Shown here piece after piece: positions 455 through 3,716 of a DNA stretch of 64,000 nucleotides. Numbering within the stretch: the first letter of the stretch is position 1; the number at the start of each line of letters is the position of its first letter. Origin of the DNA: Candidatus Pelagibacter sp. RS39 (GTDB taxonomy: Bacteria; Pseudomonadota; Alphaproteobacteria; Pelagibacterales; Pelagibacteraceae). The stretch lies in the NCBI RefSeq assembly GCF_002101315.1, contig NZ_CP020777.1, forward strand, positions 1-64,000, given 5' to 3'. Position numbers and translations under genes: made by a program. A model generated the notes under the pieces. That model was not told the origin of the DNA. It searched no databases and saw only the letters and a list, made by a program, of their open reading frames with translations.

Positions 455-1813
455 TTATTTTAATTGATTAAATAATTCTGGAGGTATTCCTTTATCAGAC
501 ATACCTTTCAGATTTCCTTTTGACATCTTTTTCATCATTTCAGACATCATTTTAAATTGTTTTAACAATTTATTGATAGTGGCTGGATCAGTTCCTGAAC
601 CATTAGCAATTCTTTTTTTTCTAGAACCATCAATTATTTTTGGGTTCTCTCTTTCTTTTTTGGTCATTGATAAAATTATAGCTTCGTTTTTTGTAATAAC
701 ACTCTCATCAATGCCCGCTGCATCCATTTGAGATTTAACCTTTGAAACTCCTGGCATGAAAGACATGATGCCTTCGATCCCCCCCATTTTTTTCATTTGT
801 CTCAGTTGAGTTAAATAATCCTGCATAGAGAATTGTCCTTTTTTTAAATTTTCTTCTGTTTTTTTTATATTTTCTTCCCCAAGATCTTGTGCTGCTTTTT
901 CAACAAGAGAAACAATATCTCCCATCCCAAGAATTCTATTTGCAATTCTGTCTGGATGAAAAACTTCAAGATTTTCAATCTTTTCACCAATACCTAAAAA
1001 TTTAATTGGAACCTGTGAAACAAATTTCATACTTACAGCAGCTCCACCTCTGGCATCACCATCTGCTCTCGTTAAAATAATTCCAGATAAATTTACCGTA
1101 TTAGTAAATTCTTTTGCTACTGATGCAGCTACTTGTCCAGTAAGCGAGTCAGCAACTAAAAACGTTTCTGCCGGTTTGATGGTATTTTCAATTTGTTTAA
1201 TTTCACTCATCATCTGCAAATCTATCTGTGTTCTACCAGCAGTATCGAATAAGATAATATCTGCGCCATTCAAGTTTGCTGCATTAATTGCTCTTTGACA
1301 AATATCACTGGGTTGTTGACCTTCAATTATTGGGAGAGTTAATATGTTATTTTGTTCACCCAAGGATTTTAACTGCTCTTGAGCAGCTGGTCTGTAAATA
1401 TCTAAACTGACCATCATTACTTTCTTTTTTTTTGTATTCTCTAAATATCTTGCAAGTTTAGCGGTTGTTGTTGTTTTACCTGAACCTTGTAACCCGACCA
1501 GCATCATTGGCACTGGTGGAACTGCATTTAAATTTACATCATTATTTTTTTCACCTAAAAGATTAACTAATTCATCATAAACAATCTTTACCACCATATC
1601 ACCAGGTGATGTTGATCTAATGATTTCTTGACCTAATGCTTTTGGTTTAACCTTTTCAATAAAATCTTTAGCAACTTCAAGAGATACATCAGCTTCTAAT
1701 AAAGCTTGTCTTATTCCTCTCAATCCTTCATCAACCTGATTTTCATCAAGTGATGGGGCTTTTTTTAGAGAGGAAAAAACTTCCTCAAATTTATTTGTTA
1801 AATTTTCAAACAT
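455..1813 (-). CDS. ffh: Signal recognition particle protein Ffh
   Basis: This is the SRP GTPase that binds signal sequences and 4.5S RNA and delivers ribosomes to FtsY. From the chosen start (MFENLTNKFEEV) it has the N domain, then the G domain with P-loop GLQGSGKTTTT near residue 107, DTAGR, and TRADGDARGG in place of TKLD. The C-terminal part is a Met-rich M domain (FMPG, MMSEMMKKM). The length of 452 residues is normal. A reading frame extends nine codons further upstream, but those residues do not look like Ffh and fall inside the predicted leader RNA, so the ATG at 1813 is preferred. No clear Shine-Dalgarno is visible. Confidence 0.96.
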   Translation of the reverse strand: MFENLTNKFEEVFSSLKKAPSLDENQVDEGLRGIRQALLEADVSLEVAKDFIEKVKPKALGQEIIRSTSPGDMVVKIVYDELVNLLGEKNNDVNLNAVPPVPMMLVGLQGSGKTTTTAKLARYLENTKKKKVMMVSLDIYRPAAQEQLKSLGEQNNILTLPIIEGQQPSDICQRAINAANLNGADIILFDTAGRTQIDLQMMSEIKQIENTIKPAETFLVADSLTGQVAASVAKEFTNTVNLSGIILTRADGDARGGAAVSMKFVSQVPIKFLGIGEKIENLEVFHPDRIANRILGMGDIVSLVEKAAQDLGEENIKKTEENLKKGQFSMQDYLTQLRQMKKMGGIEGIMSFMPGVSKVKSQMDAAGIDESVITKNEAIILSMTKKERENPKIIDGSRKKRIANGSGTDPATINKLLKQFKMMSEMMKKMSKGNLKGMSDKGIPPELFNQLK

Positions 1814-1816
1814 ATT

Positions 1817-1925
1817 TATTACACACAGCAGTAATCGCACTAGTGGGCGAACCCTCGCTGACTAGTGTCGATCTCTTTGTTTCCAAAGACACCGCAAATT
1901 TAATGTTTTTGCGGAAACTGCCACA
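1817..1925 (-). ncRNA. Structured leader RNA upstream of ffh (ffh-motif candidate)
   Basis: Read on the minus strand, this GC-richer segment folds well. Hairpin 1 pairs 1908-1914 with 1892-1898 (TTTGCGG/CCGCAAA), with a possible flanking or competing pairing of GGAAAC (1913-1918) and GTTTCC (1879-1884). Hairpin 2 pairs 1861-1867 with 1838-1844 (CACTAGT/ACTAGTG), encloses GGG-UUCG-CCC (1845-1854) and has a six-base bulge (1855-1860). A closing stem GCAGT/ACTGC joins 1917-1921 to 1828-1832. A published survey of Pelagibacter intergenic regions reported a candidate cis-regulatory RNA before the SRP protein gene. This position fits it, but the match is from memory and not computed. Confidence 0.72.
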
Positions 1926-1926
1926 A

Positions 1927-1952
1927 ATTATAATAGAGGTTCAAAAAGTCAA
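1927..1952 (-). promoter_or_regulatory. Putative promoter for the ffh leader
   Basis: On the minus strand there is TTGACT (1947-1952) and a perfect TATAAT (1927-1932). The spacer is only 14 nt, shorter than the usual 16-18, so the -35 assignment is doubtful. The -10 box is well placed to start transcription at the first bases of the folded leader. Confidence 0.45.
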
Positions 1953-1974
1953 TAAATAAGTTAAATAACTATAT

Positions 1975-2799
1975 ATGGACATCAAAGCTTTTAAAATGGA
2001 CGGATTGGGTAATGATTTTGTGATTATCGATAATAGAGAAAAAATTATCAATTTGACGAAAGATCAGATGGTTAAAATTTGTGACAGAAATTTTATTGGC
2101 TGTGATCAACTAATATTTATTGAACCAGATAGTTCTGCAGATGCAAGTTTAAGATTCTTTAATTCAGATGGAGGTGAGTCTGGGGCATGTGGAAATGGAA
2201 CTAGATGTGTTGCAAATTTGATTTCAAATGAAAAAAATAACAAATTAATAATTTTAAATACGCTATCTGGAAAATTAAAATCTGAAATTTTAGAAAAAAA
2301 AATTGTTACAACAGAAATTGGTAAAGCAAAGTTAAAATGGAACGAAATACCTTTATCAAAAGAAATAGATACAAAGAACTTAAATATCAAAATTATTGAT
2401 AAAAATAATAATGAGTACTCAGGTGGCACTGCAATTAATGTGGGTAACCCACATATAGTTTTTTTTGTTAAAACGATTGAAGATTTTGATATAGAAAAAA
2501 TTGGCCCTGAGATAGAAAATCACAAAATCTTCCCAGAGAAATGTAACGTAACAATTGCTCAAATTGTTAATAAAAATTTGATCAAAGTAAAAGTTTGGGA
2601 AAGAGGAGCTGGTCTTACTAAAGCTTGCGGAACTGCAGCGTGTGCTACAGCATATGCAGGTAAGTTAAATAATCTTACAGAAAATAAAACTGATATAGAG
2701 TTTGCATCTGGAAAATTATCAATTTCAATAGATGAAAATAATTCTATTCACATGAAAGGACCTGTTTCCGATATTAAAGAAATACAGATAAAATTGTAA
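1975..2799 (+). CDS. dapF: Diaminopimelate epimerase
   Basis: This cytoplasmic enzyme interconverts LL- and meso-diaminopimelate for lysine and peptidoglycan synthesis. It has the family N-terminus (KMDGLGNDFVI), the first catalytic cysteine in GACGNGTRC (Cys72) and the second in TKACGTAAC (Cys218), as a two-thiol epimerase needs. The length of 274 residues is normal. Its stop overlaps the ftsY start as TAATG, which implies translational coupling. It is divergent from ffh. In many alphaproteobacteria a tRNA methylthiotransferase gene sits between dapF and ftsY. None is present here. Confidence 0.96.
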   Translation: MDIKAFKMDGLGNDFVIIDNREKIINLTKDQMVKICDRNFIGCDQLIFIEPDSSADASLRFFNSDGGESGACGNGTRCVANLISNEKNNKLIILNTLSGKLKSEILEKKIVTTEIGKAKLKWNEIPLSKEIDTKNLNIKIIDKNNNEYSGGTAINVGNPHIVFFVKTIEDFDIEKIGPEIENHKIFPEKCNVTIAQIVNKNLIKVKVWERGAGLTKACGTAACATAYAGKLNNLTENKTDIEFASGKLSISIDENNSIHMKGPVSDIKEIQIKL

Positions 2800-3716
2800 T
2801 GGGAATCTTTGATAAATTTAAAAACGGATTTAAGAAAAGTGCATCAGCTTTAACATCTGGGCTTAAGGAAATAATTGTTAAAAAGGAAATTAATGATGAA
2901 AATTTAAATAAAATTGAGGAATTTTTAATTCGATCAGATGTGGGGGTTGAGGCTGCATCTGAGATAAAAGAAATAATTTCTAGAAAAAAAATTGATCCAA
3001 ATAAAGATTTAACTAAAGAAATAAACTCTGTTTTAAATGAATATATAGTTTCTTTGATGAAACCTCTTGAAAATAAATCTTTTTTTGAGAAAAAAGAAAA
3101 ACTTAATGCAACCTTAGTCTCTGGTGTGAATGGTGTTGGAAAAACAACGACTATAGGTAAAATAGGAAAAATATTGAAGACTAACGGAAGTAAAGTCATG
3201 TTTGCAGCTTCAGATACTTTTCGTGCCGCTGCGATTGAACAACTAGAAAATTGGGCAAGTAAAGTAGAAGTTCAAATAGTAAAATCATCTCAAGGAGCCG
3301 ATCCCGCTTCAGTTGCTTTTAAGGCTGTAGATGAAGCTATTAAAAATAATTTTGATCAAGTTTTGATAGATACCGCTGGAAGACTCCAAAATAAAAAAAA
3401 TTTAATGGAAGAATATAAAAAGATTGCAAATGTTACCAAAAAAATAGATCCCAACGCACCTCATAATGTTATTTTAGTTTTAGATGCAACCTCAGGACAA
3501 AATGTATTAAATCAAGTCGAAGAATTTAATAAAATCATCCCTATAACAGGTATCGTGATGACAAAATTAGACGGCACAGCGAAGGGAGGAATTTTGTTAG
3601 CGTTAGCAAAGAAATATGAAATTCCAATTATTGCACTTGGTTTAGGTGAAAAAGAGGACGACTTACAGTTATTCGAAGCAGAAAAATTTGCTGAGGCTTT
3701 TACGCAAATTAATTAA
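2799..3716 (+). CDS. ftsY: SRP receptor FtsY
   Basis: This membrane-associated GTPase pairs with Ffh during cotranslational targeting. The NG domain is complete: an N-domain helix bundle to about residue 90, P-loop GVNGVGKTTTIGKI near 109, DTFRAAA, DTAGRLQ, and TKLDGTAKGG. At 305 residues it is a short form without the acidic A domain of the E. coli protein. The N-terminus keeps a basic/aromatic FDKFKNGFKK segment that could touch the membrane. It starts on the last base of the dapF stop and overlaps the convergent next gene by 8 bp. Confidence 0.96.
   Translation: MGIFDKFKNGFKKSASALTSGLKEIIVKKEINDENLNKIEEFLIRSDVGVEAASEIKEIISRKKIDPNKDLTKEINSVLNEYIVSLMKPLENKSFFEKKEKLNATLVSGVNGVGKTTTIGKIGKILKTNGSKVMFAASDTFRAAAIEQLENWASKVEVQIVKSSQGADPASVAFKAVDEAIKNNFDQVLIDTAGRLQNKKNLMEEYKKIANVTKKIDPNAPHNVILVLDATSGQNVLNQVEEFNKIIPITGIVMTKLDGTAKGGILLALAKKYEIPIIALGLGEKEDDLQLFEAEKFAEAFTQIN

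Follow-up and report, generated by a model that had tools for sequence, protein, structure and literature searches.

The ffh locus and its leader

The window, that is, the whole stretch of 64,000 nucleotides that was analyzed, contains ffh near its left end on the minus strand (Table 1). Its product has the domains SRP54_N, SRP54, and SRP_SPB. The gene starts at the ATG at 1813 to 1811 (−) and not at the GTG at 1840. The latter gives the longest open reading frame and is inside hairpin P3 of the leader, while the homologs start at the equivalent of the ATG. On the plus strand, dapF begins at 1975, divergent from ffh, and ftsY, the SRP receptor gene, follows at 2799; the two overlap by one base and together occupy 1975–3716. 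One intergenic region of 161 bp is here common to both SRP protein genes, ffh and ftsY. At the very start of the window, positions 1–77 (−) are a perfect 30-base tandem repeat of 2.6 copies, which encodes a 10-residue repeat at the C-terminus of ribosomal protein S16 (rpsP, 2–442).

The first-pass annotation, made from the letters of the window, had proposed a structured RNA along the ffh leader on the minus strand, and the folding agrees with it: the 201-nt leader region had a z-score of −3.74, and only 1 of 200 shuffled sequences folded as well. In Pelagibacterales and many other alphaproteobacteria the leader has the same order, namely a TTGAC promoter, hairpins P1 and P2, one spacer base, hairpin P3, and a tail. 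In 85 of 88 leaders from Pelagibacterales, TTGAC precedes P1 by 38–41 nt; in 24 of the 41 parsed leaders from other alphaproteobacteria, the distance is 38–42 nt. This is the sole conserved promoter of the leader, and a generic promoter scan did not list its −35 box TTGACT. Judged from the promoter spacing, transcription of the leader should begin 3–5 nt before P1, and the leader here is about 105 nt long.

Table 1. Positions of ffh and of the parts of its leader in the window
Feature	Position	Strand	Basis
−35 box TTGACT of the leader promoter	1947–1952	−	Sequence; TTGAC conserved at a fixed distance
Putative −10 box TAATTT, 16-nt spacer	1925–1930	−	Sequence; fixed TTGAC-to-P1 distance
Predicted transcription start, 3–5 nt before P1	1917–1919	−	Promoter spacing
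Hairpin P1: CCGCAAA (1914–1908) with UUUGCGG (1898–1892)	1892–1914	−	Covariation
Hairpin P2: core UCUUUG/CAAAGA (1889–1884/1879–1874), base CGGU/AUCG (1894–1891/1872–1869), G.G mismatch 1890/1873	1869–1894	−	Covariation; blind RNAalifold consensus
One-base spacer (A or C) between P2 and P3	1868	−	Comparison of loci
Hairpin P3 (published ffh motif): CACUAGU/ACUAGUG, C.C 1860/1845, A.C 1859/1846, GCGA/UCGC, loop GGGU	1838–1867	−	RF01793, 54.4 bits; covariation
Tail with positionally conserved bases C1, U4, U8, G9, U11, and G12 in Pelagibacterales	1825–1837	−	Comparison of leaders
ffh (SRP54 protein)	455–1813	−	Pfam SRP54 9.8e-69, SRP_SPB 4.8e-31

No terminator was found between the leader and ffh in 60 of 62 loci, nor at the site in the window, and the median gap between P3 and ffh was 52 nt among the matches listed. 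Three observations, namely the position of the sole conserved promoter upstream of the leader, the missing terminator in 60 of the 62 loci, and the short distance to ffh, make it very probable that the ffh mRNA begins with the leader. Outside SAR11 the distance from the leader to the start codon ranges from about 20 to almost 300 nt. In one distant relative (L034), a stretch of 292 nt separates P3 from ffh and possibly contains a small open reading frame.

Relation to the published ffh motif

The Rfam covariance model RF01793 ("ffh") matches the window at 1829–1882 (−) with 54.4 bits (E = 1.4e-7; gathering cut-off 35 bits), and a search with this model was what the first-pass annotation had proposed. 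The match is on the same strand as ffh and upstream of it, and it contains the bulged hairpin with two conserved cytosines (C.C 1860/1845). Meyer et al. described the ffh motif in Pelagibacter in 2009 (PMC2704228). They presented it as one bulged hairpin upstream of ffh in which two cytosines are almost invariant, and assigned it no function. Hairpin P3, the gene, and the bacterial lineage are all the same, and the RNA family itself, including the P3 hairpin, is already known since that year. The candidate cis-regulatory RNA that the annotation mentioned for Pelagibacter is this motif, and it is very probably a cis-acting leader. Two differences in structure were found. The published motif is one bulged hairpin, whereas here P3 comes third among the hairpins of a leader next to the promoter; and the Rfam model has a 2 × 2 loop, whereas here we see one fixed C.C mismatch and a variable pair. 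As far as the literature shows, the size of the element, its alternative pairings, the corrected loop, and the wider range appear to be new.

According to the 2009 paper, no transcriptional or translational control of ffh had been described till then, the motif was absent from Rhodospirillales, and the ffh leader had been seen in marine small-RNA metatranscriptomes cited there (PMC2704228). Transcripts from the same leader have also been reported from Sinorhizobium and Bartonella. Sinorhizobium sm5 was predicted as an sRNA of about 108–120 nt with a putative terminator and a promoter directly upstream, and it gave array signals (PMC2573895); the Bartonella ffH leader RNA was expressed by RNA-seq (PMC7717549). 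Both were treated as sRNA or leader candidates, and the portions of these two papers available to us gave no function. A plasmid of Mesorhizobium huakuii carries an RF01793 match (MH_s5) between two same-strand genes, possibly a copy away from ffh (PMC5596092). The phrase "ffh motif" was found in the 2009 paper alone, a search for RF01793, ffh leader, or ffh sRNA returned nothing on function, and the accessible portions of the literature contained no regulation experiments on the leader.

Covariation of the three hairpins

About 340 related loci were compared overall. Covariation was judged against a tree null, a simplified variant of the R-scape approach that we built ourselves: the substitutions of each column were re-dropped at random on an Ffh-protein tree of 84 distinct Pelagibacterales leaders. 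P1, P2, and P3 covary beyond this null and beyond column slides. The outer helix of P3 had a G of 153 against 10 in the null (p < 0.001), with 588 of 588 outer pairs canonical. For the core of P2, G was 326 against 51, and for its base 68 against 4 (both p < 0.001); the canonical and Watson–Crick counts of the P2 base were less reproducible (p from 0.003 to 0.17 in different runs), while the G statistic was stable. P1 departed from the null in both the Watson–Crick count (p = 0.015) and G (p = 0.014). When all column pairs were scanned blindly, the top ranks were taken by pairs of P3 and P2 and by the triple 1912/1894/1869, and one pair of neighboring flank columns was also high. The helices at 1838–1867 and 1892–1914 that had been read from the single sequence are present and covary, and the proposed check across SAR11 homologs came out in favor of these two.

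A structure-blind MAFFT alignment of 36 sequences (31 from Pelagibacterales and five others) gave a similar picture. RNAalifold picked P2 with its base and P3, with changes on both sides in 15 of 21 pairs. On this alignment P2 was paired in 96.3% of cells and P1 in 93.6%, the latter with both-side changes in four pairs. The two alternative structures were paired in 92.7% and 93.1% of cells, compared with 38–44% in slid controls. In loci outside Pelagibacterales P1 and P2 were placed by pairing, and the covariation claims rest on Pelagibacterales and the structure-blind alignment. In 62 loci of other alphaproteobacteria, the hairpin ending 1–3 nt before P3 had a mean energy of −11.7 kcal/mol, compared with −4.8 kcal/mol in shuffled upstream sequence.

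The internal loop of P3

The C.C mismatch of P3 (1860/1845 here) was present in 148 of 150 loci. The position beside it is A.C in 121 loci, and it is C-G, U-A, G.U, or G-C in 24 of the 62 loci outside Pelagibacterales. Named genomes were also scanned with a pattern that accepted any of the four Y/R combinations at this variable position. Upstream of ffh, it found at least 113 C-G and at least one U-A, and none of the matches listed there had a mismatched Y/R combination. The top pair of the GCGA/UCGC register covaries, with A-U 33 times and C-G three times in one alignment, and A-U 111, C-G 10, and U-A once in another set. Judged by this comparison of loci, the sole constant feature in P3 is the C.C mismatch, and the 2 × 2 loop of the Rfam model is better read as one C.C mismatch and a variable position.

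Structures that were rejected

The UUCG-capped stem with a six-base bulge that had been suggested for P3 (GGG-UUCG-CCC here) can form in no more than 45 of 150 loci. It loses to the GCGA/UCGC register, in which two loop positions face each other and which has covarying pairs. An extension of P3 (AUCG/CGAU) in the single-sequence fold showed no covariation (G = 1 against 8 in the null). P3 is not an intrinsic terminator in SAR11: there is no U tract, and the Pelagibacterales tails scored 0.55 compared with 0.94 when shuffled. The tails of Rhodospirillales-type loci are U-rich (1.82 compared with 1.21).

The first-pass annotation had counted three helices including a closing stem, GCAGU/ACUGC (1917–1921/1828–1832). 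This closing stem had to be given up. All five of its pairs occur in only 7 of 84 distinct leaders, of which five carry the identical GCAGT/ACTGC. Its covariation did not exceed the tree null (p = 0.06–0.12), and its 5′ strand coincides with the predicted transcription start or precedes it. A third hairpin that is real is P2, which has the clearest covariation. A different closing stem, P0, joins the 5′ end (NNUUCC) to GGAANN before ffh. In SAR11 clades with GG in the tail, P0 has modest support (Watson–Crick p = 0.008) that its slid registers do not have; in other clades, pairing between the tail and the 5′ end is weak. The window's own clade lacks P0, and outside Pelagibacterales no pairing between the ribosome site and the 5′ end of the leader was seen (p = 0.57).

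A base shared by P1 and P2

Base 1894 (C) has two partners: in P1 it pairs with 1912 (G), and in the basal helix of P2 with 1869 (G). Because this one base is common to both, P1 and the base of P2 cannot form together. Both pairings are canonical in all 36 aligned sequences, in which the shared base is C in 28 and U in eight. G-C-G changed to A-U-A at 1912/1894/1869 on the same two branches, one Pelagibacter lineage (L081) and one clade of 13. L087, a further lineage, took the C-to-U step alone and keeps G.U on both sides. The median energy gap between the two states was 0.7 kcal/mol, and it was within 2 kcal/mol in 32 of 86 leaders, a few of which (such as L055) were mis-parsed. The joint change of the three bases on two branches suggests that selection maintains P1 and the base of P2 as alternatives. 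The leader has two mutually exclusive helices, each with covariation support. Bistable riboswitches in general also have mutually exclusive helices; unlike in these, regulation by a ligand is here a proposal. The main alternative reading is a static base triple 1912-1894-1869, which could mimic a switch.

Distribution and a model of the whole element

RF01793 has matches in 212 of 247 genomes of the family, which cover all 14 genera, in 102 of 117 genomes of the order, and in 106 of 385 genomes of the class, with one copy per genome. In 176 of 179 fetched loci, a recognizable ffh follows the RNA on its strand. The three exceptions (L143, L160, and L180) have no recognized ffh, and two of them are short at a contig end. 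In the pattern scan, ffh was directly downstream in 114 of 120 loci among the matches listed. We also used a covariance model of the whole element, R1, which matches the window genome once, at 1825–1920, with 102 bits. R1 matches 133 of the 385 class genomes, compared with 106 for RF01793. Forty fetched loci were found by R1 and missed by RF01793, and every one of the 40 precedes ffh on its strand. A draw from the whole phylum gave 43 matches, all of them in Alphaproteobacteria. The motif is present in Azospirillum, Skermanella, Niveispirillum, Magnetovibrio, and Kiloniella, and therefore the 2009 statement that it is absent from Rhodospirillales no longer holds.

Comparison with 4.5S RNA

The 4.5S RNA (small SRP RNA, RF00169) is the partner of the Ffh protein, but the true 4.5S gene is elsewhere in the genome. 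RF00169 had no match in window 1500–2400, even at E ≤ 5. The symmetric loop of SRP RNA (3′ strand AGCA) is absent from the leader, and a 4.5S-like Ffh site was not found. The genome's own 4.5S RNA is at bases 229884–229976 (L001 1501–1593). It scores 34.3 bits, below the RF00169 cut-off of 40, and therefore automatic annotation may miss it.

Possible functions of the leader

The most likely function of the element is that of a cis-acting 5′ leader that regulates ffh, to which we give a probability of roughly 0.55. How it would do so is more tentative. The alphaproteobacterial ffh leader may be a two-state RNA switch that sets the level of Ffh, with P1 and the base of P2 as the alternatives and the hairpin with the C.C mismatch as the sensor. 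In one state the full P1 would form with a short P2. In the other, P2 would be extended to its base, and the 5′-terminal (N)UUCC would be freed. In many SAR11 clades, though not in the window's clade, the freed end could base-pair with a GGAA-N that immediately precedes the ffh start codon, and the pairing would complete a four-way junction covering the ribosome entry site. A factor bound to the P2–P3 stack, which contains the C.C mismatch, would favor one state over the other and thereby adjust translation of ffh or stability of its mRNA. Ffh itself would be the most economical candidate for the bound factor; no Ffh-binding signature was found in the leader. The lack of P0 in the window's own clade and of pairing with the ribosome site outside Pelagibacterales would argue against this switch. 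Moreover, one ribosome-site mechanism cannot serve all loci, because the leader-to-start distance outside SAR11 varies so widely.

Four other explanations were weighed. The RNA might also act, or act instead, as a free trans-acting sRNA released by processing or termination after P3, and the Rfam type of RF01793 is sRNA. The prediction of sm5 as an sRNA of about 108 nt with a putative terminator, its array signals (PMC2573895), and the U-rich tails of Rhodospirillales-type loci point the same way. However, the Pelagibacterales tails are less U-rich than shuffled ones, nearly all loci lack a terminator before ffh, and the gap between P3 and ffh is too small for a separate ffh promoter in most loci (by the median of the matches listed). 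A single copy per genome, always at ffh, would also be unusual for a trans-acting sRNA. We consider this explanation unlikely, and the sequence favors a leader over a free-standing sRNA. It is similarly doubtful that P3 mimics the 4.5S site and titrates free Ffh, as in the autoregulatory leaders of ribosomal proteins. The ffh leader resembles those leaders in being the structured 5′ leader of a gene for an RNA-binding protein, and the gene for the SRP receptor FtsY lies on the far side of the intergenic region. In its 5′ strand, P3 has GUCAG, which we take to be a word from the Ffh site of Escherichia coli 4.5S RNA; it is a lead only. Against this, the symmetric loop of 4.5S RNA and any RF00169 match are missing, and the A of the presumed loop is replaced by C-G, U-A, or G.U types in other orders. 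Meyer et al. likewise argued against a likeness of the ffh motif to SRP RNA (PMC2704228).

The hairpins could simply protect or localize the mRNA without regulating it, as a constitutive stabilizer or tag, and P1 is indeed only 3–5 nt from the predicted 5′ end. This is quite improbable, as it leaves unexplained the constant C.C mismatch, the one-base spacer between P2 and P3, the conserved tail, and the three-base covariation. It is hardly credible that the element belongs to dapF on the plus strand. That gene is divergent across the same intergenic region in Pelagibacterales loci, but the upstream neighbor of the leader varies (dapF, acyltransferase, DUF3108, or HTH genes), and dapF is swapped for unrelated genes in other clades while ffh stays. 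Moreover, the pair 1892-1871 is G.U in all 36 aligned sequences and would be a C.A clash on the other strand. Therefore, the strand of the element is that of ffh.

Ffh is a core protein of the cell's protein-export machinery, and how bacteria set its amount against 4.5S RNA is an old question. With a conserved leader across much of Alphaproteobacteria that has predicted ends, three helices, named alternative pairings, and an invariant mismatch, the question of the Ffh level becomes directly testable, and the whole-element model detects the RNA where Rfam misses it. We found no described case of such control in the literature; if true, the two-state switch would be a widespread class of SRP control.
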